A DNA stretch of 31,484 nt. It comes from a virus. Below the pieces are notes generated by a model. It did no database searches, was not told the origin of the DNA, and worked only from the letters and a program-made list of their open reading frames with translations. The DNA lies in IMG/VR virus record IMGVR_UViG_3300042301_001317, positions 1 to 31,484 of that record. One strand, written 5' to 3'. Of the stretch, positions 3,176 to 24,726 are shown one piece after another. Positions within the stretch are counted from its first letter, which is position 1. Each line of letters opens with the position of its first letter. The position numbers were made by a program, and so were the translations under genes.

Positions 3176-3628
3176 TTATTGTAGGAGCCTTCTAGGGATC
3201 CAACCAAGCTTTACACACTGAAGAAGGGCATGTCGTATCGCATCAAGCGCGTGTCCTTCACCGCCCTTATGCCAGTATTCCAGCTTCTTAAGTTTGGGAT
3301 TATCAAACATTGCCTTGGCGTCGGAAGGTGATTGGAAGATAACGTCATCTGCCTTTCTTCCTGCGTCCATAAGGCACTGCTTAAGAATACCAATCTGCTC
3401 AAGGCTGTAGGGAGCTTGCGTCTTTTTAGCAGTCTGAGCGTTAATGATAAAGCGCTCACAGACAACAGTCACATCAGGATACTCAATAAGAGTGTCACGG
3501 ATAGGCTTAGCATACTCTTCTTGTTGATACTCACCTGCCCAGATTAAGACTGGCTCCTGTCCTCTTTCAAACGAGAATAAAGTCATGCCTGTTGCCTTGC
3601 CTGGGTCTACCGATAAGATCATCTTCAC
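3176..3628 (-). CDS. RuvC-like Holliday junction resolvase / RNase H-fold nuclease
   Basis: A 150-residue protein with the acidic residues of the RuvC-type RNase H fold: Asp8 in SVDPGKATG, Glu58 in VVCERF, and His126/Asp129 in GEGHALDAIRHALL. Phage members cut branched DNA before packaging or during recombination. The first possible start is GTG (3626-3628), overlapping the polymerase stop TAG by one base; an ATG two codons later (3620-3622) would give nearly the same protein. It is followed by an 87-base gap, then the helicase. The fold is well supported; junction specificity is inferred. Confidence 0.8.
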   Translation of the reverse strand: MKMILSVDPGKATGMTLFSFERGQEPVLIWAGEYQQEEYAKPIRDTLIEYPDVTVVCERFIINAQTAKKTQAPYSLEQIGILKQCLMDAGRKADDVIFQSPSDAKAMFDNPKLKKLEYWHKGGEGHALDAIRHALLQCVKLGWIPRRLLQ

Positions 3629-5451
3629 TAGTATTTTTCTCCCCAGTTTTCCATAGGACCATCAATGCCGGCTGTAAGTGGGACTGCCCAACCTTCGGTA
3701 GTTGTCATGCACTCCTTAACGATACGCTTAATTTCTTCAACGTCGTTACGCGGTGCGTTAAGAACAATTTCATCGTGCACAGGGACGATTAGAAGTTCGG
3801 TTAACTCTGCCTGATCTAGTTTTACAAGATTTGCCTTAAAGATCTCAGCCGCACCTCCTTGGGCTAAATAATTAAGCAATGTATAAACTCGATCTTCATC
3901 GCAAGGAAGTCTGCGGCCTGTCCATGTGTGAACGTACCCTTGGCCTTCTGCCTTAAGACGACGCATTCCAACATCTTCAATTTTTTGCTGGAAACCGGTC
4001 ATGCCTGGAAAGCGTGCGTCAAATTGATTAACTACAGTCTTCATTATCGTCTCGGGCACACCTGCAGTTAGCGCTTGCTTTGCAACACCTGCGCCATAGA
4101 GACGACCATAAATCATGCCTTTAATAAGACCGCGTCGTTTATCAGAACGCTGGAAGTTTGGATCGCTGTATACTTCTTTTCCAATTTCAGTGAACGGATC
4201 TGATCCTGTGAGGTCTGCCTGATGAAACATACCGATAAGGTTTGGATCTCCAGTAAGAGACGCAACCATTCTAAACTCAACCTGGTCAAGGTCAGAGGTA
4301 ATAATCACGTGGTCATCGTCCTTAGGAATAAACGCACGACGTACAACGTCATCACCCTTAGGCAATGTCTGCAGCGCAGGGTTTTGGATTGACATGCGAG
4401 AGGTACGAGCGCCAAGCGTTTTTACAGAAGGGTGAACAAATCCATTGACGTTATCGTTAAGAAAGTTTGCAAAATATGTATTGGCAAGTTTATCTGCCTT
4501 GCGCTGCTTGAGTACGATTTCAGCTAAGGACTTTACCTCGTCGTTGCCTTCAATAGTAAGAAGCTTAAGTTGATCCTTTGAAGCTGATTTTTGTCCCGAA
4601 GGAGTGTATTCGTTAATCTCTGCGCCAAGAGATTCTAGTAAGCGCACTAGTTGAATATTGCTACCGATGGAAACACCGTTATATTTTTCCTTAGCCCAGG
4701 TCTTAACTGAGCCCGCGTACTCTGTTAACTCGTCAAACTTCTTCTTGGAGTAGTCAAGGTCAATACGTGCGCCGTTGATTTCCATGCGGGTAACAATGCG
4801 ACGTGTCGCCATTTCTAATTCGTATGCTCTATTGTATGGACCGTCAGGGCCACACTTTTCATAAAACTTTTCCCACAGGCGCATAGTTAAGATGCAGTCT
4901 AACGCACCGTATGCCCAGTAAGGTTGAAAATTAGTCGGAACGGTGCCCCATGTCCAGCCGTTAGTTGCTAACTCTGTATCTAACGTATCTTGAAGAGCAA
5001 CCGCGCGCCCGTCAACATATAAAGCTGCAAGACGTTTTAACGCACCGACACCAAGCGGATCAATGATATGGGCCATGATCATCGTGTCGTGCGACCTGTG
5101 CCACGGCAGCTTCCAACGTGATTGAATGTCAAACCACTTTGCCTCAAAGGCTATGTTGTGACAAACAATTTGCCCATCGAACTTATCCATAGCTTGATAG
5201 AACGCACCTGCCCACTCGTCCCACGGCATTGCCCACGCCTGTTGCCCATCACCAACCTGCACAAGACGAATTCGCCCGTGCCAAGGAGATAAGGCGTCCT
5301 TGCGATCTCGTCCTGGGTATTCTCCAGTTTCAGTATCAATCGCGATTGCATCATGAGGACGACGCTCGCCAAGCCAGGTTAAAAACTCGCCTGCCTTTTC
5401 AACGCTGTCTACGAGGTGAAGTTGTACGTCACCTAAGCCTTCAACTGTCAT
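3628..5451 (-). CDS. polA: Family A DNA polymerase with 3'-5' exonuclease domain
   Basis: A 607-residue PolI-type replicative polymerase without a 5' nuclease domain. Proofreading domain: Exo I DTETG (Asp39, Glu41), Exo II CHNIAFEAKWF (Asn99; Glu103 sits where Klenow has Asp424), Exo III YGALD (Tyr181, Asp185). Polymerase domain: motif A SDLDQVEFR (Asp387, Glu392), motif B KRRGLIKGMIYGRLYG (Lys444, Tyr448, Tyr452), motif C VHDE (Asp560, Glu561). Tyr448 occupies the position of E. coli Phe762, as in T7 DNA polymerase. Its start lies inside the end of the deaminase gene (11-base overlap), and its stop touches the RuvC-like start. Assignment is firm. Confidence 0.96.
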   Translation of the reverse strand: MTVEGLGDVQLHLVDSVEKAGEFLTWLGERRPHDAIAIDTETGEYPGRDRKDALSPWHGRIRLVQVGDGQQAWAMPWDEWAGAFYQAMDKFDGQIVCHNIAFEAKWFDIQSRWKLPWHRSHDTMIMAHIIDPLGVGALKRLAALYVDGRAVALQDTLDTELATNGWTWGTVPTNFQPYWAYGALDCILTMRLWEKFYEKCGPDGPYNRAYELEMATRRIVTRMEINGARIDLDYSKKKFDELTEYAGSVKTWAKEKYNGVSIGSNIQLVRLLESLGAEINEYTPSGQKSASKDQLKLLTIEGNDEVKSLAEIVLKQRKADKLANTYFANFLNDNVNGFVHPSVKTLGARTSRMSIQNPALQTLPKGDDVVRRAFIPKDDDHVIITSDLDQVEFRMVASLTGDPNLIGMFHQADLTGSDPFTEIGKEVYSDPNFQRSDKRRGLIKGMIYGRLYGAGVAKQALTAGVPETIMKTVVNQFDARFPGMTGFQQKIEDVGMRRLKAEGQGYVHTWTGRRLPCDEDRVYTLLNYLAQGGAAEIFKANLVKLDQAELTELLIVPVHDEIVLNAPRNDVEEIKRIVKECMTTTEGWAVPLTAGIDGPMENWGEKY

Positions 5452-5920
5452 TTACGTCCTCTGTTATTACTACCTCGATGTTGCACTTCTTAAAATAATC
5501 TACAGTCGCATCCGGCAAACGATGAGCCGCACGCGTTCCAATTCGCATAACAACGCGTGTAATTCCAGAGTTAGAAATTAACTTTGCACACTGATAACAT
5601 GCTGCGTCTGTTATGTATATGGTACCACCTTCTACGCGAGAACGGTCAACGTATAGTAGTGCGTTTGACTCTGCGTGAATTGATGGACATGAATCATATG
5701 TGTTATCGAGTGAGCTTAATCCTTGTGCTCGTGCACACCAGTTAATACAGTCGCCTTCCGCAGGAAACAAAGCTGCAGGACCGTTATACCCGGTAGAACT
5801 TATGCGTTGGTCCTTAGACACAACAACAGCTCCAATGTGTGCACGGCTACAGCGAGATCTTTGTGCGATTGCATCTGCAACCTGCATCCAGACCTCGTCC
5901 CAGGAAGGGCGATTACTCAT
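5441..5920 (-). CDS. dCMP deaminase (deoxycytidylate deaminase)
   Basis: A 159-residue zinc-dependent deaminase of the ComEB/dCMP type, converting dCMP to dUMP. The catalytic HAE motif is at 82-84 (PSIHAESNALL) and the second zinc motif is TDAACYQC with Cys108 and Cys111; Ala107 replaces the usual Pro before the first Cys. The TGYNGPAA segment at 43-50 is also typical of the family. The gene is coupled to the small upstream gene (ATGA) and overlaps the polymerase start by 11 bases. Alongside a dCMP-type hydroxymethylase candidate it could set the balance between dUMP/dTMP supply and modified cytosine, as in T4. Confidence 0.9.
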   Translation of the reverse strand: MSNRPSWDEVWMQVADAIAQRSRCSRAHIGAVVVSKDQRISSTGYNGPAALFPAEGDCINWCARAQGLSSLDNTYDSCPSIHAESNALLYVDRSRVEGGTIYITDAACYQCAKLISNSGITRVVMRIGTRAAHRLPDATVDYFKKCNIEVVITEDVNDS

Positions 5921-6096
5921 CTATCAATATCCTCAATTCCACCAATAACAGCACTTGAAAGTATCTTTGACACTAGGTGCAGTGCTTCCTTCTTGCTAAA
6001 GCCCGCAGATCTAAGTTCAACGTACATCTCGTGGAGTTGCACGGTTGCCTCGCGAAGTGGACTACTTTGTCCAAAACCCTCTAGCTCATTACTCAA
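5917..6096 (-). CDS. Small hypothetical protein (TTG start), 59 residues
   Basis: I do not recognise a family. I place the start at TTG 6094-6096: AAAGGAG (6103-6109) sits 6 bases upstream, and this start overlaps the glycosyltransferase stop by only 8 bases. The longer reading from ATG 6127-6129 has no ribosome site and would overlap by 41 bases. The product begins MSNELEGFGQSSPLR and is mostly predicted helix, with an acidic C-terminus and no membrane segment. It ends in an ATGA junction with the deaminase gene. Its position between the glycosyltransferase and deaminase genes suggests co-translation with the modification block, but its role is unknown. Confidence 0.65.
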   Translation of the reverse strand: MSNELEGFGQSSPLREATVQLHEMYVELRSAGFSKKEALHLVSKILSSAVIGGIEDIDR

Positions 6097-7132
6097 TTCG
6101 GTCTCCTTTCTGATTTGCCCATAGCTCATCGGACTTGCTGATATACTTATTAGTAACGTTGACCGCGAACTCTATTGCCTCTGATGATATTCTGTACATC
6201 ACATTATGGTGTTCTGGCCTTAGTATTTTTCCCCAGTAAGGCGCTAACTTCTCAGTTAGAGGAGCAAAACTTTTAGAAAGTGAAGAATCTTTAACTAAGA
6301 TTGGATTAGTGTCTCCAGGGTGCATTTGAAGTCTATCCCACATCTGTGCAATATCTTCATCAGGCGTTATCGTCTTTGCAAAAACTTTATTGGCAAAGTT
6401 ATTATTGACGCGTTCGTGCACATCCTTGCGAGCCTTAAATCTTTGTAGACTCGTGTAAGGAAGATGACATATTAACCAATCTTCCTTATTTGACGCGGCA
6501 ACCGTAGTATCCCAAAGGTGCCAGAACTTACCGTCCCCATATTTAAGCTGGTGCTGTCCTGCGTCAACAAAGTCACCGGAGTTGTTTTTTACCAGGATCT
6601 TTGAGGGAACCCTAAACTCGTGAAGAAGTTTCTCGTTTCTTTTAACCTGCTCGTGAAACTCGTCACGATCTCCTATGTGATTTACGGACGTCACATAATG
6701 ATCTATGAGATGATAATCATCTAGTCTGGTGTCAATAAATCCTAGTGGAACTATATAGTTTTCTAGCTGCATGGCTATAGCATTCCATTTTTCACCTAGA
6801 TTAGATAAAAGATCTTCTATATCTTTGTCGGTAGGGCTAACGAGAAACTCGTCTGCGTCAAAGATAAAGTTCCAGTCAGGATTTTCTTGATTACTGATAT
6901 GTAGAAGAATATTAGTTAAGGCTTCCTGGTCAAATAAGTTGTCCTCATATCTAAATACCTCTATCTGATCCGGCCAAACCTTTTGTAGCTCAGCAAGACC
7001 ATTTTTTGTGTCGTCGGTGCTGGAGTGGTCAATAACAAAAACTTTATCAACATGATAAAAAAGCGCATGCGAGATAGAGAGACCTAGTAAAGGCCACTCA
7101 TTTCTTGCTATTACTACTCCATGAATTTTCAT
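6089..7132 (-). CDS. GT-A type glycosyltransferase (family 2-like)
   Basis: A 347-residue protein with a family 2-like glycosyltransferase N-terminus: an opening strand KIHGVVIARNEW, DHSSTDDT at 35-42 and a metal-binding DAD (92-94) inside FIFDADEF. This resembles the Glyco_tranf_2_4 group, which transfers sugar from a nucleotide sugar. The C-terminal part is rich in His, Trp and Lys and is not recognised. Its ATG overlaps the stop of the thymidylate-synthase-family gene (ATGA), so the two are probably made together. That coupling, within a nucleotide block and far from tail genes, makes glycosylation of a modified DNA base a reasonable inference; surface glycan modification is the main alternative. 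Confidence 0.8.
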   Translation of the reverse strand: MKIHGVVIARNEWPLLGLSISHALFYHVDKVFVIDHSSTDDTKNGLAELQKVWPDQIEVFRYEDNLFDQEALTNILLHISNQENPDWNFIFDADEFLVSPTDKDIEDLLSNLGEKWNAIAMQLENYIVPLGFIDTRLDDYHLIDHYVTSVNHIGDRDEFHEQVKRNEKLLHEFRVPSKILVKNNSGDFVDAGQHQLKYGDGKFWHLWDTTVAASNKEDWLICHLPYTSLQRFKARKDVHERVNNNFANKVFAKTITPDEDIAQMWDRLQMHPGDTNPILVKDSSLSKSFAPLTEKLAPYWGKILRPEHHNVMYRISSEAIEFAVNVTNKYISKSDELWANQKGDRIE

Positions 7133-7980
7133 CTCTTATTGACTGCCTTAATCATGGCGTTTGCATACCATTGCTCAAAAGGGTGAAGACCGTACAGAAG
7201 CGCTTTTTCCTCATGATGAATTGCAGCCGTCAACGCGTTCATTGCGTAGTCTGAAACTTCTCCCCAAGAGTTACCTACCATAGCAGGGATCTTTTCGTAC
7301 GGAGCGTAAGTATGTTTTAAGCTTTCTGCAGAGTCATAGTGTTGCTCGTAGATATGAAGAGATCCGACGTGATGGTGATACGTTCCTGGCTCGATACCCA
7401 GGATAGATGCGATAGCAAGTTGAACGCGGGTAAACTGGAAGAAGTCGTACGCCGCTCCTAGCCATACGTCGTTTGAGCGCATGTAAACGCTCATGTTAAG
7501 TTTGTTGTTGCGAATCCTGAATTGATGAAGGATAGTGCACGGGTAGTCTCGCTTATTTGCAAGAAGATCTAGCTCCGGATTCCAAATCGTAACGACAGCC
7601 TGTCGCGTATCTGGGTCTGCCTTAAGTCTTTCAACTATAGGAGCATACTGTGACTGTGTGCGAATTCCATACGCTCCGTGAAATAATCCGTTATCCTCGG
7701 TATAGTTAGCAAACTGTGGACCGATGGCAATAACAAGTTTCGGTGTGCTTGCACCTGCGATAAGCTGGCAAGCCTCAACCGCACCGATACCTGGAACAGT
7801 TCCACGTCCTACACCTAAAGGTAAGGTGTTGTACACGTCATCTATACGAATAATTGCATCTTCAATCTCGCGCGTCTTCATACCGCGAGGAGCGACCTCC
7901 TTGCCGTATTTAAGTACGTGCTGCACAAGATCAACGTATCCGTTAACCGCGTCAGGTATGTTAATTATCGCAGTATCCAT
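7129..7980 (-). CDS. Thymidylate synthase-family enzyme, probable dCMP hydroxymethylase (or dCMP methylase)
   Basis: A 283-residue ThyA-fold protein. The catalytic Cys148 lies in DYPCTILHQF. The phosphate-binding and base-binding segment reads MRSNDVWLGAAYDFFQF (167-183), with Arg168, Ser169 and Asp171. Aligned to E. coli ThyA (Cys146, Arg166, Ser167, Asp169, Asn177), the Asn that selects dUMP is Asp179 here. His209 and Tyr211 match ThyA His207 and Tyr209; Glu69 matches Glu58. In known enzymes Asp at this place goes with dCMP as substrate, as in T4 dCMP hydroxymethylase. Hydroxymethylation versus methylation cannot be settled by eye. The gene overlaps the kinase by 16 bases and the glycosyltransferase by 4; AGGGAAG serves as ribosome site. 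Confidence 0.85.
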   Translation of the reverse strand: MDTAIINIPDAVNGYVDLVQHVLKYGKEVAPRGMKTREIEDAIIRIDDVYNTLPLGVGRGTVPGIGAVEACQLIAGASTPKLVIAIGPQFANYTEDNGLFHGAYGIRTQSQYAPIVERLKADPDTRQAVVTIWNPELDLLANKRDYPCTILHQFRIRNNKLNMSVYMRSNDVWLGAAYDFFQFTRVQLAIASILGIEPGTYHHHVGSLHIYEQHYDSAESLKHTYAPYEKIPAMVGNSWGEVSDYAMNALTAAIHHEEKALLYGLHPFEQWYANAMIKAVNKR

Positions 7981-8981
7981 TTATCTTCCCTGTCTTTTGT
8001 TTGTGTTAGTCGTGTTATTGCCTTGCCGTACTCTTCTTTTTGCGAGTTAAGAAATCGTCTAACATGCTGCGGGTGGGAGGTTACAGAGTAAAGATAGCTA
8101 GGTATGTCTGCGTAGATAAGTCCTTTTTCTGCAAGACGCCCTAAGGCAACTATAGGTGGACGACGCAGGGTACACCATAGATCCTCAAAACGCTCCGATG
8201 ACATATCGTTTATGTTAACGATACCCATGGTCTTCCACTTATCGGACTCGAGAGCCGTAAGTAAAAACTCGCCGGAGTTTCCATCAACAGGCATGAACGG
8301 CAGGATAGTTTCCTCGCCATATTTCTTAGTGATATTTCTTGTATCTCCTACGAGTAGTACCCTTGGAAATCTTTGTCCGATGTACTCCGGAAACTTTACT
8401 AGTTCCTGCGTGTCTTCTTGAAAAGCTTCCGCGCGGCTAATAACGTGTGACGCAAGATGAGATATGGCATCAAGTGAATCTGGAGAAGGAGTTAGGCGTC
8501 CTGCAAGTCCTGCGGAGTTTGCTGCCGCGAGCTCGTATAAACCTAAGATCTGTTCGAGCTCGTGCGCCTGTATGTAATCGTCACCGCGAGCATTAAGACG
8601 ACGAGTAATAACATCAAGAGGTTGATAGAGCCAAAATTGAGCAACACCGCGTGATTGAAGGAAAAGCTCTGTCCAACGCCAACCTGCTCTACCAAGGAGA
8701 CCGTATCCGTCGCCTGTACCCGTCTCAGGGCGTTTTATAGACGCATACGTGATTTCGCCCCAATGCCAGCGATCTGCAACCGCAATACGTTGAGACCAAT
8801 CTGCCTTTTCAATAGAGGTGACGTAGTCATATAAAACCCAACGACGAGACATCTCTTCAGGCTTAGACTTATGGTAGAACTCGATTTCTTTTTTAGGAAA
8901 CTTTTCGGTAAGTTGTTTTTGAACTTCAGACACTAATGTAGATTTGCCTGAGGCGTCCGTGCCTTCAATAACTATAAACAT
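7965..8981 (-). CDS. Thymidylate kinase-like dNMP kinase with extra C-terminal domain
   Basis: 338 residues, longer than the usual 200-220 of thymidylate kinases. Residues 1 to about 185 form a P-loop kinase: GTDASGKS (7-14), a DRW motif (70-72) followed by GEITYA, and a LID-like LNARGDDYI (129-137). The extra part (about 205-320) has LLVGD (209-213), NSGEFLLTAL, GIVNIND, PPIVALGRLAEKGL (275-288) and SHPQHVRRF (302-310). That order of elements resembles the uracil-DNA glycosylase superfamily, but this is pattern-level only and the motifs are degenerate. It is the first gene after an extended -10 promoter candidate, with AAAGGACG before ATG. Likely role: phosphorylating the product of the downstream synthase-like enzyme or dTMP. 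Confidence 0.8.
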   Translation of the reverse strand: MFIVIEGTDASGKSTLVSEVQKQLTEKFPKKEIEFYHKSKPEEMSRRWVLYDYVTSIEKADWSQRIAVADRWHWGEITYASIKRPETGTGDGYGLLGRAGWRWTELFLQSRGVAQFWLYQPLDVITRRLNARGDDYIQAHELEQILGLYELAAANSAGLAGRLTPSPDSLDAISHLASHVISRAEAFQEDTQELVKFPEYIGQRFPRVLLVGDTRNITKKYGEETILPFMPVDGNSGEFLLTALESDKWKTMGIVNINDMSSERFEDLWCTLRRPPIVALGRLAEKGLIYADIPSYLYSVTSHPQHVRRFLNSQKEEYGKAITRLTQTKDREDKWILR

Positions 8982-9007
8982 CTTTTGCGTCCTTTGTCTC
9001 TAAGAAA

Positions 9008-11670: not shown

Positions 11671-13104
11671 TTATGACCACCTTAACCATACGTCTCCGTT
11701 GCCACCGTCGAGCGCGTCACTTGGTGCAGAGGATGATGCAAAAGTGTTTCTTAGCGAGCCGGAGACACCGCTGGTGTTGCTTCCACTTGATTGAAGATAC
11801 GGCGCGTTAGCAAGAGTTATAGAGTTGTACGCACCCGCTAAAATTACAGCCCCTGCATAAGCCATCGTTAGCATTGAGTCGCCTGACTGCATAACAACAC
11901 CCTCAGCTACGGCTGTTATTCTGCCAATTTCTGATCCGCTTACGTTAAAGAAAATTGAATTACCAGTGCCTGATGGAGCTAGCGCAAGACCTGTGCCACT
12001 TGGATAATTTGTAGACGTAAAAGTAGAACCTTTTACCTCACCTGTAAATACCGCTGTGCCAGTGTTAAGGATAGACACTGTTGCTACAGATCCGTTATAC
12101 GCAAAGAAGCCGCTAGAGTTTATTTCAATGCGAGGTGTAAATCCACCTGTGCCAGAAGCCGTGGCGCTCGTTGTAATTTTTACCGTACCGGCGACGTCTA
12201 AGTACCCAGTTGTAATTTTTCCGGCGTCAAGGTTGGCGATTACCGCGTTCCCAATTGGAGCAGACGTCCATGATGTGCCACCGGCACCTACATATTGTCC
12301 TACAACAACTCCACCAGAGTACTGCCACCAGATATCTCCAGCGGTGTTAGCCGTGCTGCCCGGCGCGGCAGTGTCATAGTAAACTTTATTTTTGCCGTTC
12401 GCTGTTGACTGCGCGGTGGAAATTGCACCATCTTGCGCAGAAACCCACGCGGTTCCACTATACCTATACAGCTTATTTCCGTCGTTAGTATCTATCCAAA
12501 GATCACCAACGTTGTACGCACCGCCGGTAGGTTCATTGTCCTGCACATACGTTTTTGCCTTACCATCAGCCGTAGCCTGCGCTGCTGCCGAGTCTTGCGA
12601 CAATACCCAGTCGGTGCCGTCCCAGGCGTAAAGTTTATCATTATCATTTGTATCAATCCAGATGTCGCCGACTTCATACGCCGTGCCCGCTGGTTCGTTA
12701 TCTTGGTAATAGACAGCGCTTTTAGAATCTGCAGCTGCCTGTGCAGCCGGATCAGTTATAGTTACAAAAGCTGAAACATCTTCACTGTAAACTTTCTGTG
12801 CACCTGTGTCAGGGTCAACTACAGTCGTTCCTTCTTTTACGATAGCAGGATCTGTATCAGAAACTACGGTAACTCCAAAAGCTGCCTCATTCGCTGTTAC
12901 AGCGTCAGTTGCGATATTTTCTGTTTCAACCGCGTCAACTTGAATTACCTTCGTTGTTACCGCGCGATAGCCAAGCTTCTCAGTTGTTACAACGTTTGCC
13001 TTAAGACGTTTTGCACCAGGTCGTTTTTCAACACGACGAACGCGACGCTCAACGTCAACTATAACCTTGCCGATACTCTTACGGCGTCTACGTCTACTGG
13101 CCAA
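11671..13104 (-). CDS. Minor tail / baseplate protein with three internal repeats
   Basis: About 477 residues. I choose TTG 13102-13104: GGAGG (13114-13118) lies 9 bases upstream, whereas the in-frame TTG at 13113 directly abuts it. The product opens with a basic stretch (MASRRRRRKSIGKV) and a short coiled coil, common in actinophage tail proteins. The middle has three copies of a unit with the pattern P-x-G-x-A-Y-x-V-G-D-I-W-I-D-T-N-D followed by a Trp-containing end. ANLDAGKITTGYLD (about 293-306 from the first TTG) resembles the C-terminal motif of GpJ-type tail proteins. The gene overlaps the hub gene stop by 11 bases. Probably a host-contact tail-tip protein. Confidence 0.75.
   Translation of the reverse strand: MASRRRRRKSIGKVIVDVERRVRRVEKRPGAKRLKANVVTTEKLGYRAVTTKVIQVDAVETENIATDAVTANEAAFGVTVVSDTDPAIVKEGTTVVDPDTGAQKVYSEDVSAFVTITDPAAQAAADSKSAVYYQDNEPAGTAYEVGDIWIDTNDNDKLYAWDGTDWVLSQDSAAAQATADGKAKTYVQDNEPTGGAYNVGDLWIDTNDGNKLYRYSGTAWVSAQDGAISTAQSTANGKNKVYYDTAAPGSTANTAGDIWWQYSGGVVVGQYVGAGGTSWTSAPIGNAVIANLDAGKITTGYLDVAGTVKITTSATASGTGGFTPRIEINSSGFFAYNGSVATVSILNTGTAVFTGEVKGSTFTSTNYPSGTGLALAPSGTGNSIFFNVSGSEIGRITAVAEGVVMQSGDSMLTMAYAGAVILAGAYNSITLANAPYLQSSGSNTSGVSGSLRNTFASSSAPSDALDGGNGDVWLRWS
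12265..12744 (-). repeat. Three tandem ~53-residue repeats in a baseplate protein
   Basis: Copies 1 and 2 share QDNEP, VGD(I/L)WIDTND and KLY; copy 3 is diverged (AGDIWWQYSGG). Each begins with an AQ-x-(A/T)-A-(D/N)-x-K helix. They look like small beta units joined by short helices. Confidence 0.75.
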
Positions 13105-15061
13105 TCTTGTCAACCTCCGGCTCTGTAACTAGTAGCAATTCAGTTTCTTCTGGGAAACTTGGTGTATCAGGAACTGATACCTTAAATCCTTCGATCTTAC
13201 GAACGATTACCGTATCACGAACCTCAAGGTCACTTGCAAGACGCATTCTTACAAACTCATCTTCAACAATAATCGAGCACCAGTCTCCTGGAACAAACTC
13301 TCCGATCTTAGGAGATAAAGATCCGTTAACTTTTACCTTGATGTCTGAGATAGGAGGGCGTGACTCCGCAAGGTAGCGTTGCGCGTGAGCATACAAGGCA
13401 GACTCTTCAGACTCCTCGCTTCTTGTCTCCTCTGCATCAAGGATAGGCCAGCCTGCTAATAAAAGATCAGTTGCAGACGCAACCGCGTACGGTTGGCTGA
13501 TGTCATCGCCAAGATCTGGGATATTTCCAACAACAAAGAAACGCGTTGCCGAGTCCTCGGCAGACTCTTCCATCGTCACGTCAATAATACTTCCAGGATA
13601 CTCGAATACAAGCTGGTCTGCTCCGTAGCGACTTGGAGGAGATACCTCTCCTTCCGCAGGAGGGTTTGGATAGTCAATAGGTAGTAAAACAAACGTGCGT
13701 GTAAACGTAGGTATGTCTCCTATATACACAAGATCACAGTCAATACGATACTCAAAGCCGTCTACAGTGTCAGAGTACTCGTCGAGTTCTTCACCAACTG
13801 AGCGAAGCTCAAATCCGCGATATGGATTATTTGGCACGTTCTTTCCGCTATACTCATCTGTTGAATACGAGATATCAATGTCAGAGTTTCCAGGAAACGG
13901 TCCGTATGTTCCGACGTTCGCAGTTGATTGAACAACAGCCGTTCCGCCAGTTACCGCCGTAGCAACCATGTCGCTATCTGCAACGTATACCCTAAACGTA
14001 GTTGCGCTTGGAATATCTACAATTTGGTACTCGCCGTCAAACACAATGATAAGAGAGGCAGGATCATCTACACCGCTAAGCACAACCGTGTCATATTGCG
14101 CGAAGCCGTGAGAGCTGCTTGTAGTAATAGTTGCGGTGAAGTCCGCGATAGACTTAGACGTTACTGTTTTAGTTATATTTTTTACCGAGGATGTTAATGA
14201 TGATGCAACAGTAAACGTAGTATCGCTAGGCACCGACGTTACATCCCACAAACCGTCTAGTCCAGCAGACACGTTATAGATCTCTGTTGTTTGAGTAGGT
14301 ATCAGCCCATGTGCAGATGCGGTAGTAACTGTAGTAATACTTGACGGCGCGGTAATAGATGTAATTCGTAAGCTATTAGTAAGCGCCGGCTCAATGTCTG
14401 TGTTAGGAAATGTTATATCGCTAAAGTCTACAAGAATCTCATCGAGCAGCTGGCGTACGTAGTCGTATGTATCAACGCGCGCGTAGACCGTCACACCGAC
14501 GTATGTTCCGTTAGGCACGGATGTTCCGGTGATGGTGAATGTTATATTTGTAGGAGAGGAGGCAATTACGTAATATGCGTTATACACAAAGTCAGAAACC
14601 TCTGGAAATATAAGACGAACAGACGAGCCTACAGGGAAGTCGTACTCTAAGGCTTCTAGAGTTGCAGTTAGAGTTCCGCCTGACGCAACAACGGTTGCGC
14701 CAAAGTCGTGCGTCCATGTCTTCCAGATATTACGGTGGAAGAAGTAGCTGGTAAACTCTGATGCGCTGACACTTAGTTCACGGTCAACGACATTGTAGTT
14801 ACGGTTCCAGATAATTCCGCCCCACACACACTCGCTATCACGCACAACGTAGAGTCCTGTTTTTCCAGGCATGGTGCTTTCATACAAGTTCATCGAGGCT
14901 GTCTCCGGGATAACCGGTATGTTTCCGCCAAAGCTGCCCGCTGCCTTGATAGATCTTTCAAAGGAAACTCCTTTGAAAGGAATTTCTGCAAGTACCTGAT
15001 TCGTTAAAAGATCAGTAGTAAAGTACCTATATACGGCTGCGTCTGATTGATACAGTGCCAT
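13094..15061 (-). CDS. Tail hub-like minor tail protein with inserted beta modules
   Basis: 655 residues. The N-terminus (FKGVSFERSIKAAGSFGGNI, VWGGIIWNRNY) and the C-terminus (KIGEFVPGDWCSIIV) fit the phage tail hub group (T4 gp27-like, Siphovirus Gp37-like). The hub appears split by an insertion from about residue 128 to 378 containing two clear and one diverged copy of a beta module shared with other virion proteins. The start ATG follows GTGAGGT after a 45-base gap. It lies after the distal tail gene, the usual place for the hub. An endopeptidase activity is not visible. Confidence 0.75.
   Translation of the reverse strand: MALYQSDAAVYRYFTTDLLTNQVLAEIPFKGVSFERSIKAAGSFGGNIPVIPETASMNLYESTMPGKTGLYVVRDSECVWGGIIWNRNYNVVDRELSVSASEFTSYFFHRNIWKTWTHDFGATVVASGGTLTATLEALEYDFPVGSSVRLIFPEVSDFVYNAYYVIASSPTNITFTITGTSVPNGTYVGVTVYARVDTYDYVRQLLDEILVDFSDITFPNTDIEPALTNSLRITSITAPSSITTVTTASAHGLIPTQTTEIYNVSAGLDGLWDVTSVPSDTTFTVASSLTSSVKNITKTVTSKSIADFTATITTSSSHGFAQYDTVVLSGVDDPASLIIVFDGEYQIVDIPSATTFRVYVADSDMVATAVTGGTAVVQSTANVGTYGPFPGNSDIDISYSTDEYSGKNVPNNPYRGFELRSVGEELDEYSDTVDGFEYRIDCDLVYIGDIPTFTRTFVLLPIDYPNPPAEGEVSPPSRYGADQLVFEYPGSIIDVTMEESAEDSATRFFVVGNIPDLGDDISQPYAVASATDLLLAGWPILDAEETRSEESEESALYAHAQRYLAESRPPISDIKVKVNGSLSPKIGEFVPGDWCSIIVEDEFVRMRLASDLEVRDTVIVRKIEGFKVSVPDTPSFPEETELLLVTEPEVDKIGQ
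13928..14161 (-). repeat. Shared beta module, copy in tail hub (C)
   Basis: Residues 301-378 of the hub. Landmarks: TITTSSSHGF, VVLSG, FDGEYQIVDIPSATTF. Resembles the E1-FCCH-like module found in many phage structural proteins. Confidence 0.7.
14162..14374 (-). repeat. Shared beta module, copy in tail hub (B)
   Basis: Residues 230-300 of the hub, directly before copy C. Landmarks: TTVTTASAHGL, GLDGLWDVTSVPSDTTF. Confidence 0.65.
14486..14680 (-). repeat. Shared beta module, diverged copy in tail hub (A)
   Basis: Residues 128-192 of the hub. Only the back half (YYVIASSPTNITFTI) fits the module pattern well, and the AHG signature is lost. Confidence 0.35.
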
Positions 15062-15106: not shown

Positions 15107-16744
15107 CTATCCAAGCCATGCAGAGCGGTAATACACCGTTAAAGATGCAGAGCTTGTTAGGTCGCCTTCATCGTAAAAACTAAATACGTTTGCGCCAGGA
15201 GCTAAGAGTGTCCACTCTGCAAGAACGTCAATAAGACTGCGCTTACCGACCGCGTCTCCGTTAAGCGCAACCTCGTGGTCACGCGTATCAATTTCAAGAA
15301 TATCTGCGCTAGATGTAATTGTTCCAGATGAAGCTACTGATACTACGTTGGTAGCTGTTTTAGCGTAGGTAAGCGTAGTTGTTGTTGGCACAGTTAATAT
15401 CGTAAAGGTGCCGTTAAATGTTGCGTGAACGCCAGATACAACTACCACATCACCCGCAAGAAGCCCGTGAGCAGCCGAGGTTGTAAGCGTTGCAATGTTG
15501 TCTGTTAAAGCCCTGTTAGAAACGGTAGGTGTCAGGACTCCGCGCAACGCGCCAATGATGGTGATAGACTCGTTAGTTGTCTCGTTAAGGATAGTTGCAG
15601 GACCAGTAAGAGGGCCGGTAACCTCAAAAATAACAGGCGAATATGCGTTTCCTGTATTTGTAACCGTGCCTGTTCCAGATCCGGGAGTTCCCGAATCTTC
15701 TCCTGCAATCGTCACCGCACGATAGCCTAGTTCGTTTCCTTCGTACCACTCGTACTTAAGAGGGTCTGGTGCACGTAGTCCGATAGAAAACTCTGTGCGT
15801 CCACGAGCGTTTACAGTTTGAATATCTGGTTGACCAGATAAACGAACGAACGAAGCCTTGGTAGGATTTTCATTTGTCTTCAACCATCCGCCAACGTATA
15901 CAAGATCTGTCTCTTGGATAAGCTTATCTCTTGACACTGGAATTAGCGATGGGTCTGGAGTAAGAAAGACTCCATTAAGTGTAATTTGGCGAGCTTGATA
16001 GCGTCCGCGCACATCGTAGGATCCGTCTCCCCAACCGCGAGGAATATCACGTACCTCCGGCTCAGGATGAACCCACCAACCTTCGATGTCCGTGCATACC
16101 CAGACAACGCCGTTTTCATCTACCGTGTTAAGAATAAGACTTCCGATTGAAACGTCAGCGTTAAGCTGCATTCCTGTGATCTTAGGGATAGGTAGTGGAG
16201 TAAGCCCAAGGTTGACGTACTTGTTTTCAGTTGCCTGCGTTACGTCGTCAAAATACTCGCCGACGTAGGATGCGGCCTCAAAGATAAAAGCATCTGCGTA
16301 GAATTTCTTACTAACCGTGCCAGCCAACGGTTGAACAATCGAGATTAGCGCTCCAAGGGCTAATGCAGGCGCGGTCATTACACCCATTAGTCTTATCCAG
16401 TCATCGCCTGGAGTGTTCTCTAGACTGATTGTGGAGGTCGTGGAGATAAGGCTACCACCGCTTAGGGCAGTGTACCAGCCGACGTTAATTTGAAAGGCAC
16501 CGGTTTCTTCTCCCGCAGGGACCTTTACGTATCCGGCAACCGCATACGAGGTAGCGGCGGAGACAGAGATGCGAGATGCAATCACCGCACCTGAGTTTAC
16601 GGCCGCGGCCTTCGTAATTTCTAGGCAGGAGGAGCCAAAGAACGCGTCGGTGGTAATACGAGTAATCGTTGAAGATCCTGTGGCAGACCAACCTGTTGTG
16701 TCTGTCTTAAATGAAGGGTTGACGATTAAGTTATTTCTCGCCAT
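15107..16744 (-). CDS. Distal tail protein (Dit-like) with N-terminal carbohydrate-binding-like domain
   Basis: 545 residues. Residues 1 to about 165 begin NNLIVNPSFKTDTTGWS and end YADAFIFEAA, the pattern of a jelly-roll carbohydrate-binding module. From about 185 the protein looks like a siphophage distal tail protein (GRYQARQITLNGVF, SIGLRAPDPLKYEW, C-terminal SLTVYYRSAWLG). A beta module shared with other virion proteins is inserted at 407-477. The gene begins one base after the tape-measure stop, the standard place for Dit. The added lectin-like domain suggests that the tail tip binds a host glycan; that is inference. Confidence 0.8.
   Translation of the reverse strand: MARNNLIVNPSFKTDTTGWSATGSSTITRITTDAFFGSSCLEITKAAAVNSGAVIASRISVSAATSYAVAGYVKVPAGEETGAFQINVGWYTALSGGSLISTTSTISLENTPGDDWIRLMGVMTAPALALGALISIVQPLAGTVSKKFYADAFIFEAASYVGEYFDDVTQATENKYVNLGLTPLPIPKITGMQLNADVSIGSLILNTVDENGVVWVCTDIEGWWVHPEPEVRDIPRGWGDGSYDVRGRYQARQITLNGVFLTPDPSLIPVSRDKLIQETDLVYVGGWLKTNENPTKASFVRLSGQPDIQTVNARGRTEFSIGLRAPDPLKYEWYEGNELGYRAVTIAGEDSGTPGSGTGTVTNTGNAYSPVIFEVTGPLTGPATILNETTNESITIIGALRGVLTPTVSNRALTDNIATLTTSAAHGLLAGDVVVVSGVHATFNGTFTILTVPTTTTLTYAKTATNVVSVASSGTITSSADILEIDTRDHEVALNGDAVGKRSLIDVLAEWTLLAPGANVFSFYDEGDLTSSASLTVYYRSAWLG
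15314..15526 (-). repeat. Shared beta module, copy in distal tail protein
   Basis: Residues 407-477. Landmarks: TLTTSAAHGL, GDVVVVSG, FNGTFTILTVPTTTTLTY. Close to the copy in the adaptor. Confidence 0.75.
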
Positions 16745-22209: not shown

Positions 22210-23577
22210 CTAGTTGTCTAGTGTATATGTAGGTGTCGGTACAGCGCCAAGTTTAAGTGATAGGTTACCGGACGCAATATACACAGTTTCAGTTCCCTTT
22301 ACTGCATAGAGATCCCACGTACCTGGGTCAACAAAGCCCGCGTAGGCATATGCATCTGCGTAGGGAACCGATAATGTTAGTGTGTCGCGAGACTCGTTTG
22401 TAACAAGCGCCGTTCCGGTGTCTGCGCCGTACGCAACGTTGCTTGCAACCTTGACATACATAAAGGTAGTAGTCGTAGGGACATCCGCGATGTAGTACGA
22501 GCCGTTAAAGGTTGCGTTGATGCCTGAGATTGTCACGTAGTCGCCTGCTGAGAACCCGTGGGCAGTCGACGTGGTAATAATCGCCATGTTATCCGCGAGC
22601 TGCTTGTGAGAGACGGACTTAGAGATGTCGGTAGTGATGGTGTTAATAGAAACGGCGCCTGAGCCAAGATCTTTTGTCTTAGTTCCGCTGTAGTTACTGA
22701 TCTTAAGGTTAGGCACCCATGTATCATCTGTTACCAGGAACGCGGCGTTGATGTAGTCGATGTTTACGTCGAGAGTTCCGCCGTCATTTCCTGTGATGAT
22801 CATGTCAAGAACACTTGGAGCAAGAGAAAGAGGCTTAGAAACATGACGACGAGCGCGAGGAACGTCTGGAGAGAATACGCGTGCCTTTGCACGTGCCTTA
22901 TCTGGGTTTGAAGACTTAAGGAAGAGATCTACAACGTATAGACCTGTGCGTAGCTCATCAATGAAGTCCTGGTTGTCAAGAACAGTGTAGGAAACGCCTT
23001 GGCGAGAGATAGCGGTAATACGTTGAGGCAATGCACAGTCATCGTTGCCAGACCAGAGCTTAATAAACTCTGTAGCAAGGGTACGCGCGGCTGCCTTGCC
23101 AGACGCAGGAGGTGGAGATCCATATGTGTATGTAACTTCAATGTTGCAAGGTGCCCAGGCTGTCCCGGAGCGTGCTTGAAGCGTAGAATGATCTACTAAA
23201 TAGTAGTTAGAAGGGTCGACTATCATTCCAGTGCGGTCACGGACGGCGTCGATCTTAACTACAGGCCGTCCGCGTAGGCGTAGACGTGTAGAAGGTGACA
23301 TACCGTCTGTTGTAAGCTCGGCGTAGTCGTCAAATTCATCAAAAGGAAGGTTATACATGTCGCCGGCGACAAGTTCCGGCGTGTAGTTACGAGCAGAGGC
23401 GCCTAGACGATACGCACGTGACGCGCATACATATTTTTCTGTAACTGTATTGATTCCACCATACTTGCGACCAGACATAGACCATAGAAGTTGAGACGCT
23501 ACCTTAACGGCCTCGTACGCGTATTCATGATCCGCGTAGATATCTAGTTCTTCAACGTTAACCCAAAGGTTTGACAC
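22210..23577 (-). CDS. Head-to-tail adaptor with C-terminal beta extension
   Basis: 455 residues, about twice as long as ordinary adaptors. The N-terminal part (about 1-245: helix YEAVKVASQLLWSMSG, then RLRGRPVVKIDAVRD, IEVTYTYGSPPP, a helix AARTLATEFIKLWSG) fits the gp6/gp15-like connector of actinophages. From about 255 a beta-rich region follows, interrupted at 319-392 by the module shared with other virion proteins. Start GTG 23575-23577 with AGGA upstream. The extension probably decorates the neck; its function is unknown. Confidence 0.75.
   Translation of the reverse strand: MSNLWVNVEELDIYADHEYAYEAVKVASQLLWSMSGRKYGGINTVTEKYVCASRAYRLGASARNYTPELVAGDMYNLPFDEFDDYAELTTDGMSPSTRLRLRGRPVVKIDAVRDRTGMIVDPSNYYLVDHSTLQARSGTAWAPCNIEVTYTYGSPPPASGKAAARTLATEFIKLWSGNDDCALPQRITAISRQGVSYTVLDNQDFIDELRTGLYVVDLFLKSSNPDKARAKARVFSPDVPRARRHVSKPLSLAPSVLDMIITGNDGGTLDVNIDYINAAFLVTDDTWVPNLKISNYSGTKTKDLGSGAVSINTITTDISKSVSHKQLADNMAIITTSTAHGFSAGDYVTISGINATFNGSYYIADVPTTTTFMYVKVASNVAYGADTGTALVTNESRDTLTLSVPYADAYAYAGFVDPGTWDLYAVKGTETVYIASGNLSLKLGAVPTPTYTLDN
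22402..22623 (-). repeat. Shared beta module, copy in head-tail adaptor
   Basis: Residues 319-392. Landmarks: IITTSTAHGF, GDYVTISG, FNGSYYIADVPTTTTFMY. Confidence 0.75.
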
Positions 23578-23676: not shown

Positions 23677-24726
23677 TTAAGAGGTTGGATCCTCTGTAGA
23701 CGCAATGATGAAGTCTACGTCGTTATCAGCGTTATAGTCCAAGCTGCCAGGAACGTTATAAGCTGTAGTTGAACCTTCTGACGCAAAGTCAGTGACCGCG
23801 CGTGAGTTTGTAGGTACTAGAGCTGTTCCAGTATCTGCAGCAGAAGTGATTGTTCCACTTGTTGCTGTTGTGTATGTGAAGGTTGTTGTTGTTGGTACAG
23901 TTGTGATTGTGTATGTACCATGCAAAGGAGCATTTCCGTTTGTACCGGAGATTGTTACTGTATCACCAACCTCAAAGGTGTGAGCCGTTGAGGTAGTGAT
24001 TGTAGCAGTCGTGCCAGTACGCTGTGAGTTAGAGATTGTCTTTGAGATATCTCCGTGCCATGTGTAGAAGCCCTTGCGGCCTGTTGGAGCCCAAGCATTG
24101 CGAGCATATGAGTATGGGCGCTCTGTTGCAACTGGGAATTCCCAGCGATCATCTAAGCCCATTGAGAATGCTGTGTTGCCAAGTCCGTAACCTTCGAATG
24201 TATTTGCAAGCAAACCATTCTCAATTACGCGGTCGCCTGAAAGGCGAAGTTTTGCGTATGGGAATACCCAGTGGAAGTAAGGAAGTGTTGCTGCCTTCTT
24301 GCCGTCAATGATTGCGTGTGACCATGTCTCAATAGCAACACCGTTACCTGCAGGATCATCACCTGTTGCAGGAGAAGACCAACCAACAGATTTGCGATCT
24401 GGTGTAGCAAATGTTCCAAGGTTCTTACGAAGCAATAGACCGCCTGAAAGAAGCTGCGTTAATTCTGTATCTGGCTCGCAGATTGCAAGTTCCATTGTGA
24501 TACGCTTTAGCGTATCTGGAGACTTGTATGTTACGCAGACAGCGCCGTTAGCGCCTTTTTCTGTAATTTCATCGCCTTCTTCATATTCTGGTGTGAATGA
24601 AAGACGCATGAATGCAGATGTTGTGTAGCTGTCGCCAGGCTCATTTAGGAGGTTACCAGACGCGTCAAGTCGAGTTACTCGAATTGAGACGCCCTGAATA
24701 CTGGCGGCGTATTCTTGAGTTGCCAT
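23677..24726 (-). CDS. Major tail (tube) protein
   Basis: 349 residues. The N-terminal two thirds match the pattern of actinophage tail tube proteins: SIQGVSIRVTRLDASGNLL, SFTPEYEEGDEITEKGANG, CVTYKSPDTLKRITMELAIC, and a later LDDRWEFPV. A module at 228-304 shared with adaptor, distal tail and hub proteins is added near the C-terminus, so each subunit would present it on the tail surface. A ribosome site AAGGAG precedes ATG 24724-24726. A strong hairpin follows the gene. It lies before the adaptor gene rather than just before the chaperones, which is not the usual lambda-like order. Confidence 0.85.
   Translation of the reverse strand: MATQEYAASIQGVSIRVTRLDASGNLLNEPGDSYTTSAFMRLSFTPEYEEGDEITEKGANGAVCVTYKSPDTLKRITMELAICEPDTELTQLLSGGLLLRKNLGTFATPDRKSVGWSSPATGDDPAGNGVAIETWSHAIIDGKKAATLPYFHWVFPYAKLRLSGDRVIENGLLANTFEGYGLGNTAFSMGLDDRWEFPVATERPYSYARNAWAPTGRKGFYTWHGDISKTISNSQRTGTTATITTSTAHTFEVGDTVTISGTNGNAPLHGTYTITTVPTTTTFTYTTATSGTITSAADTGTALVPTNSRAVTDFASEGSTTAYNVPGSLDYNADNDVDFIIASTEDPTS
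23815..24045 (-). repeat. Shared beta module, copy in major tail protein
   Basis: Residues 228-304. Landmarks: TITTSTAHTF, GDTVTISG, GTYTITTVPTTTTFTY. Confidence 0.75.

Follow-up and report, generated by a model that had tools for sequence, protein, structure and literature searches.

The ThyA-family protein of 283 amino acids encoded at positions 7129–7980 (minus strand) of the 31,484-nucleotide stretch of viral DNA analysed here (the window) is strongly supported, by its active-site residues, as a dCMP-using hydroxymethylase and not a thymidylate synthase. Its gene very likely provides 5-hydroxymethyl-dCMP for phage DNA in the manner of T4. The source is a freshwater phage whose host is probably an actinobacterium.

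Active-site residues of the ThyA-family protein

Membership of the thymidylate synthase family is indicated by a match to PF00303 (1e-26) and by PDB matches across the family, the best of which (7e-24) is to MilA, the CMP 5-hydroxymethylase of mildiomycin biosynthesis. MilA is the closest solved structure and shares the C-T and D signature. Alignment showed D145, C148, T149, R168, S169, D171 and D179 to carry numbers identical to those of T4 gp42; the original prediction had named Cys148, Arg168, Ser169 and Asp179 at these positions, with Cys148 and Asp179 numbered as in gp42, and was correct on both counts. Codons 145–149 (D-Y-P-C-T), which include the catalytic Cys148, lie at 7534–7548, codons 169–171 (S-N-D) at 7468–7476, and codon 179, encoding Asp where dUMP-using enzymes have Asn (PMC8670742), at 7444–7446 (all minus strand). 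The signature D145/C148/T149/S169/D171/D179, and likewise R168, was kept in 80 of 80 close IMG/VR relatives (59 distinct sequences), a conservation that, judged on the sequences, is not chance.

The reading as a dCMP hydroxymethylase is based on these residues. D179 and T149 match published determinants of cytosine use in the ThyA family (PMC8670742). D145 stands three residues ahead of Cys148, as expected for water activation; this Asp is needed for hydroxymethylation in T4, and thymidylate synthases have Leu there (PMC6400193). Deoxyribose is distinguished from ribose by Ser169 and a phosphate-site Arg in place of Ala/Lys (PMC5175136); the window enzyme carries Ser169 together with the Arg equivalent to R126, a pair that by comparison with MilA goes with dCMP and not CMP. 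D171 is a folate-site residue, in line with the use of methylene-folate. Ser94, a published signature (Ser/Thr two residues before the active-site Tyr), is absent, with Gly in the window (G102-A-Y104) and in 80/80 relatives. The same position is Gly in MW202621, annotated as a pyrimidine hydroxymethylase, and Ala in the SPO1 dUMP hydroxymethylase; T4 S94A retains approximately 25% activity (PMC6400193). The window protein would work like a dCMP hydroxymethylase, its strict membership by the published Ser94 signature being incomplete.

The same signature was present in 64 of 65 distant hydroxymethylases, gathered by a search led from a distant sequence. Neighbours of these genes include GT-like proteins, HMUDK_hel, TAGT (locus L399) and, immediately downstream of the hydroxymethylase at locus L390, a T4-type beta-GT. 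No hydroxymethylase relatives were found in genome_contigs, and hence no host link from that source.

Organization of the locus

All genes described below are on the minus strand. The hydroxymethylase gene overlaps a P-loop (deoxy)nucleotide kinase gene (7965–8981) by 16 bp and a glycosyltransferase gene (6089–7132) through an ATGA stop/start sequence (7129–7132), as had been predicted. ATGA was present at the junctions read, in window-like contigs, and suggests that the hydroxymethylase and glycosyltransferase are translationally coupled. The kinase matched PHROG 761 (4.8e-13) and TIGR00041 (1.8e-5), with SPbeta YorR as its best PDB match (2e-5), and its gene order is the same in Actinomycetia phage DSL-LC01 and nearly all relatives. 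Its earlier description as a dNMP kinase agrees with a weak dTMP-kinase-like match confined to the N-terminal approximately 155 amino acids; the C-terminal approximately 180 residues, which are extra and without family match, had gone unremarked.

The dCMP deaminase (5441–5920) was correctly assigned (PF00383, 9e-19; dCMP-deaminase PHROGs, with PHROG 174 at 1.5e-46). It had been described as following the glycosyltransferase gene, to which it is not adjacent: a conserved ORF of 70 amino acids with no assigned function (5917–6129) intervenes. This ORF had blastp matches in 74 of 83 tabulated loci and is thus detected in most relatives. The deaminase gene is in turn overlapped by that of a family A DNA polymerase (3628–5451; PF00476, 1.4e-52).

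An accessory GT2-type glycosyltransferase gene

The glycosyltransferase is of GT2 type, with matches to PF13704 (5e-14) and PF00535 and a DxD motif (D92-A-D94) that is invariant in the alignment of close sequences; a structure prediction from eight close sequences gave a pLDDT of 38 and was not used. The gene is accessory, being present at 10 of 80 hydroxymethylase loci, every time in the same slot, and its GC content is 39.8% versus approximately 46% in the neighbouring genes. Since only about one in eight relatives has the gene, the basic modification of the lineage cannot depend on it. Pfam matches to known DNA glycosyltransferase families (AGT, BGT, TAGT) were absent from the window protein, and none of its close homologues is linked to DNA. 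Relatives beyond its lineage were not found in genome_contigs or phage records, and an alignment-based viral scan returned the same contigs only. Movement of the hydroxymethylase and glycosyltransferase genes as one block fits locus L020 and was rejected on the comparison of L040 with L007, where the hydroxymethylase is shared (97.7%) and the glycosyltransferase is not (86.4%). We propose 5hmC, or a sugar previously attached to it, as the target of the enzyme.

Cassette genes outside the window

Most of the remaining T4-like machinery appears to sit just outside the window. The original prediction recognized no dCTPase, which is true of the window itself; a contig whose shared genes are identical to those of the window has a candidate approximately 3.3 kb past the low-coordinate end. 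This dUTPase_2-family protein (G001:25669–26154; PF08761, 1e-10, a family match only) is probably the missing dCTPase. T4 gp56 scores 23.1 against PF08761, for which the cut-off is 22.9, and 23 of the 27 genomes or fragments examined from the group carry the family. MazG was dropped as a dCTPase candidate, with no PF03819 match in 27 genomes and PF08761 found instead.

The dUTPase_2 gene is accompanied by genes for PHROG 14998, a protein of GT-B fold, for a weaker homologue of it and for a C5-methyltransferase homologue. PHROG 14998, represented for example by L085:18227–19444, was found approximately 7–9 kb downstream at 43 of the 49 loci reaching far enough, and its moderate-confidence model resembles GT-B glycosyltransferases, including T4 AGT (1ya6). 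It also occurs in Gordonia phages carrying the same cassette and in the T4-like Aeromonas phage 60AhydR15PP, where a T4-type hydroxymethylase is encoded and Pfam matches to AGT and BGT are absent. AGT and BGT models had no match in three related genomes. From outside the window there is thus support for an enzyme of dCTPase type and for GT-B-fold candidates within these genomes. The C5-methyltransferase homologue is hard to square with 5hmC taking the place of every C.

Comparison with known systems

In T4, b-gt is next to gene 42, and in the window the glycosyltransferase gene is likewise directly downstream of the hydroxymethylase; both genomes also encode a dCMP deaminase and a dUTPase_2-family NTPase (the gene 56 dCTPase in T4). 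The window lineage differs from T4 in its distant overall sequence, the Ser94 to Gly change, a family A polymerase, a glycosyltransferase of another family, and the additional GT-B (PHROG 14998) proteins and C5-methyltransferase homologue. Environmental 5hmC systems found by MetaGPA (PF00303 with carbamoyltransferase; PMC8670742) share Asp177, an altered residue 147 and a co-occurring dCMP deaminase, whereas the window lineage has glycosyltransferases, and neither the window nor the cassette showed a carbamoyltransferase gene.

Phage DSL-LC01 and Gordonia phages Sixama, GodonK and GMA2 have the same hydroxymethylase signature as the window; annotation of these genes goes no further than thymidylate synthase, glycosyltransferase or hypothetical. 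DSL-LC01 has the kinase-TS-deaminase-PolA order of the window, and it and the Gordonia phages share the cassette of PHROG 14998, dUTPase_2 and C5-methyltransferase. DSL-LC01 differs from the window in that the interval from hydroxymethylase to deaminase lacks a GT2 gene, and its cassette includes a UDP-galactopyranose mutase.

Discussion

The annotation in DSL-LC01 and the Gordonia phages would make the ThyA-family protein an ordinary thymidylate synthase of nucleotide metabolism, with no DNA modification; the neighbouring kinase, in this reading a dTMP kinase, and the dCMP deaminase suit dTTP supply, and with no ThyX in nine long contigs there is no obvious alternative thymidylate synthase. 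This is highly improbable given that Asn177, His147 and Leu143 (E. coli numbering) are replaced by Asp, Thr and Asp in the window and in 80/80 relatives; moreover, Aeromonas phage 60AhydR15PP encodes a normal ThyA in addition to its hydroxymethylase. It is also very unlikely, if a little less so, that the enzyme takes dCMP and yields 5-methyl-dCMP, as the XP12 enzyme does, or 5-hydroxy-dCMP. D179 by itself leaves the product unfixed, Ser94 is not conserved, and a 5-hydroxy-dCMP synthase of the same superfamily is reported for Mosigvirus (PMC13390438), having D179 and T149 in common with the window enzyme. Asp145, Leu in thymidylate synthases, argues against such products, and the RB69 enzyme (ORF048c) departs from the window enzyme at D171 (N), at G175 (V) and at the equivalent of E. 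coli Tyr209 (F). We infer that the first two changes (N169 and V173, E. coli numbering) define 5-hydroxy-dCMP synthase activity; the window and 80/80 relatives have D and G.

An unlikely but more substantial alternative accepts the hydroxymethylase and has the GT2-type enzyme modify a virion protein or host envelope glycan, leaving DNA sugar to the GT-B proteins outside the window. The presence of the gene at 10/80 loci and its low GC suggest recent cargo, it matches no recognized DNA-glycosyltransferase family, a further GT2-type gene (PHROG 13126) is present elsewhere in these genomes, and virion glycosylation is known in actinophages (Freeman et al., 2023, as cited in PMC12619734). Set against this are the constant slot, the overlap, at those junctions that were read, with the stop codon of the hydroxymethylase gene, the replication/nucleotide and not structural nature of the operon, and the T4-type beta-GT in the equivalent place beside the same-signature hydroxymethylase of L390.

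We consider T4-type 5hmC hypermodification in a variant form, with a hydroxymethylase, GT-B transferase(s), an optional GT2-type transferase and a dUTPase_2 enzyme, to be the probable role of these genes. The hydroxymethylase would convert dCMP to 5-hydroxymethyl-dCMP with methylene-tetrahydrofolate; the kinase encoded by the overlapping gene probably helps to phosphorylate 5hm-dCMP, and the family A polymerase would incorporate 5hmC into DNA. The deaminase would supply dUMP, and the dUTPase_2-family enzyme, by homology, may clear competing dCTP and/or dUTP. For sugar addition to 5hmC, the conserved candidates of the lineage are the PHROG 14998 GT-B-fold protein and its weaker homologue. In the pathway as originally predicted, the hydroxymethylase step is upheld by sequence and the sugar step, assigned to the window glycosyltransferase, becomes a putative role of an accessory gene: a recently acquired optional transferase that may add to or vary the sugar. 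By analogy with T4, the outcome would be protection from host nucleases. It is doubtful, though conceivable, that 5hmC receives a branched or multi-sugar glycan from two PHROG 14998-type GT-B proteins and the optional coupled GT2, and that the C5-methyltransferase homologue, which recurs alongside the hydroxymethylase, has been repurposed into the pathway instead of methylating ordinary cytosine.

A literature search (Pyle et al., 2024, Cell Rep 43:114631, not covered) found no report of the GT2-type gene or PHROG 14998 being tested, and no paper reporting base modification in Gordonia phages was found. These genes would amount to a variant of the known T4-type DNA-armouring strategy in which the hydroxymethylase gene is coupled to a sugar-transferase gene of unfamiliar type. 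Should this reading hold, 5hmC hypermodification in the style of T4 reaches freshwater, probably actinobacterial, phages annotated just with thymidylate synthase or hypothetical genes, and the GT2-type gene and PHROG 14998 become two DNA glycosyltransferase candidates. Sixama and GodonK are relatives in culture on Gordonia terrae, in which the base modification could be tested directly.

Residue signature of the predicted dCMP hydroxymethylase

The thymidylate-synthase-family protein (7129-7980, minus strand) was aligned with E. coli ThyA, T4 gp42 and SPO1 gp29. The original observation of Asp in place of the dUMP-type Asn was borne out: Asp lies at the equivalent of E. coli position 177 and Thr at that of 147, two positions which distinguish modified-cytosine contigs from others in MetaGPA (PMC8670742). 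The protein also has Asp145, required by T4 hydroxymethylase for activating the hydroxylating water (PMC6400193); Ser169 and Arg, both of which accompany deoxyribose (PMC5175136); and, at the folate site, Asp171. Except for the Arg, every one of these residues has the number it bears in T4. This signature is common to all 80 close relatives (59 distinct), and 64 of 65 distant hydroxymethylases match at six tested positions, agreement that is partly by construction where the patterns used to retrieve this set contained the Asp or the MRS-D motif. The published Ser94 was not found: the whole window lineage has Gly here, as does a Manatee Spring protein that carries a pyrimidine hydroxymethylase annotation. 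The folate site is different in RB69 ORF048c, from a genus reported to produce 5-hydroxy-dCMP (PMC13390438), which argues against that compound as the product of the window enzyme.

Homologues of C5-methyltransferases recur within or beside dCMP hydroxymethylase cassettes (G001, L138:3906-5171; L235:13117-14415; L234:12327-13619; L338:63-1289; L355:3797-5002) and lie immediately upstream of the hydroxymethylase in 12 distant contigs. Those scanned match PF00145; the catalytic PPC/PRC motif is kept and the first motif is atypical. Proteins with the 5-hmdU DNA kinase helical domain, HMUDK_hel, were identified by Pfam in two loci and by sequence similarity in three (L340:2294-3151, L353:5917-7263, L341, L343 and L346); the hydroxymethylases that they adjoin have the cytosine-type Asp179, which suggests that these proteins target 5hmC and not 5hmU.

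Operon and glycosyltransferase

The 31,484-base window covers one entire IMG/VR virus record and may be part of a larger genome. Its minus-strand operon begins with the kinase (7965-8981), which has approximately 180 additional C-terminal residues without a family match; the Sixama kinase is shorter (approximately 198 amino acids). The hydroxymethylase, a GT2-type glycosyltransferase (6089-7132), a 70-amino-acid ORF conserved in 74 of 83 tabulated loci (5917-6129), a dCMP deaminase (5441-5920) and a family A DNA polymerase (3628-5451) follow, then a RuvC-like gene identified by comparison with Actinomycetia phage DSL-LC01, and helicase and nuclease genes. Most of the remaining window encodes structural parts of the virion (tail, connector, major head, portal). 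Four virion proteins, minor tail (13094-15061), distal tail (15107-16744), head-tail adaptor (22210-23577) and major tail (23677-24726), each have a short PHROG 9998 match resembling a common decoration domain.

The glycosyltransferase has PF13704 and PF00535 matches and a DAD motif, and a GC content of 39.8% versus 44.6-46.8% for its neighbours. It is present in 10 of the 80 hydroxymethylase contigs, always between hydroxymethylase and 70-amino-acid ORF, with an ATGA overlap with the hydroxymethylase gene at the junctions read; in L008 and L009, close contigs lacking it, the hydroxymethylase is six codons longer and runs directly into the ORF. Neither 50,697 phage records nor a pattern scan covering 84,980 species genomes yielded a detectable relative. 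Its position, and analogy with T4 b-gt/42 and with L390, in which a T4-type beta-GT directly follows a hydroxymethylase of the same signature, suggest DNA as its target.

Hydroxymethylase alleles undergo recombination. Between contig L020 and the window, identity reaches 98% for the kinase and 97% for the deaminase but drops to 87% for the glycosyltransferase and 75% for the hydroxymethylase; across 5400-9000 the two diverged genes sit inside near-identical flanks (97-99%). As recombination of the hydroxymethylase also occurs independently of the glycosyltransferase, joint transfer of the pair is not claimed.

A second candidate transferase beyond the window

Across the ten genes compared, the 55-kb contig G001 shows no difference from the window; after the nuclease it continues with RecA, a hypothetical gene, a 405-amino-acid PHROG 14998 protein, a weaker 348-amino-acid homologue, a 161-amino-acid dUTPase_2 protein, a small ORF and the C5-methyltransferase homologue. 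Extrapolating from the G001/window offset, the PHROG 14998 and dUTPase_2 genes start approximately 1.1 kb and 3.3 kb past window base 1; the dUTPase_2 model also matches T4 gp56, the dCTPase. PHROG 14998 is present in 43 of 49 loci extending far enough, a tally in which a few contigs are counted twice through overlapping loci. Its AlphaFold model (pLDDT 59.5, pTM 0.62) matched the GT-B glycosyltransferases MshA (9.5e-5), phage HY126 glycosyltransferase (4.5e-4) and T4 AGT with DNA (2.8e-3). In DSL-LC01 (L133:9285-12906) a UDP-galactopyranose mutase gene separates the PHROG 14998 gene from the weaker homologue; that phage's authors interpret the mutase as cell-wall related; alternatively, it could be a source of UDP-galactofuranose for DNA.

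Wherever PHROG 14998 matched over nearly its full length, in six records (DSL-LC01, Sixama, GodonK, GMA2, MW202657 and Aeromonas 60AhydR15PP), the same record harbours a cytosine-signature hydroxymethylase, that of 60AhydR15PP being T4-gp42-like in a record with no AGT or BGT match. Vibrio 6E35.1a and C48C1, with partial matches, gave no hydroxymethylase by PF00303. Being few and partly related, the six records provide supporting rather than statistical evidence.

Host and novelty

DSL-LC01 has a predicted Actinomycetia host (PMC10611076) and relatives of the window carry WhiB-like genes; no direct host link was found. Gene order, residue signatures, accessory distribution and the external cassette are read directly from the sequences. 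From these we would predict what the hydroxymethylase makes, which substrate the kinase takes, how the steps are ordered, that DNA is the acceptor and that protection results. DNA-hypermodifying virus-encoded glycosyltransferases are reported from metagenomic DNA (Pyle et al. 2024). The pathway logic is that of T4; the set of transferases and the phage group are different.
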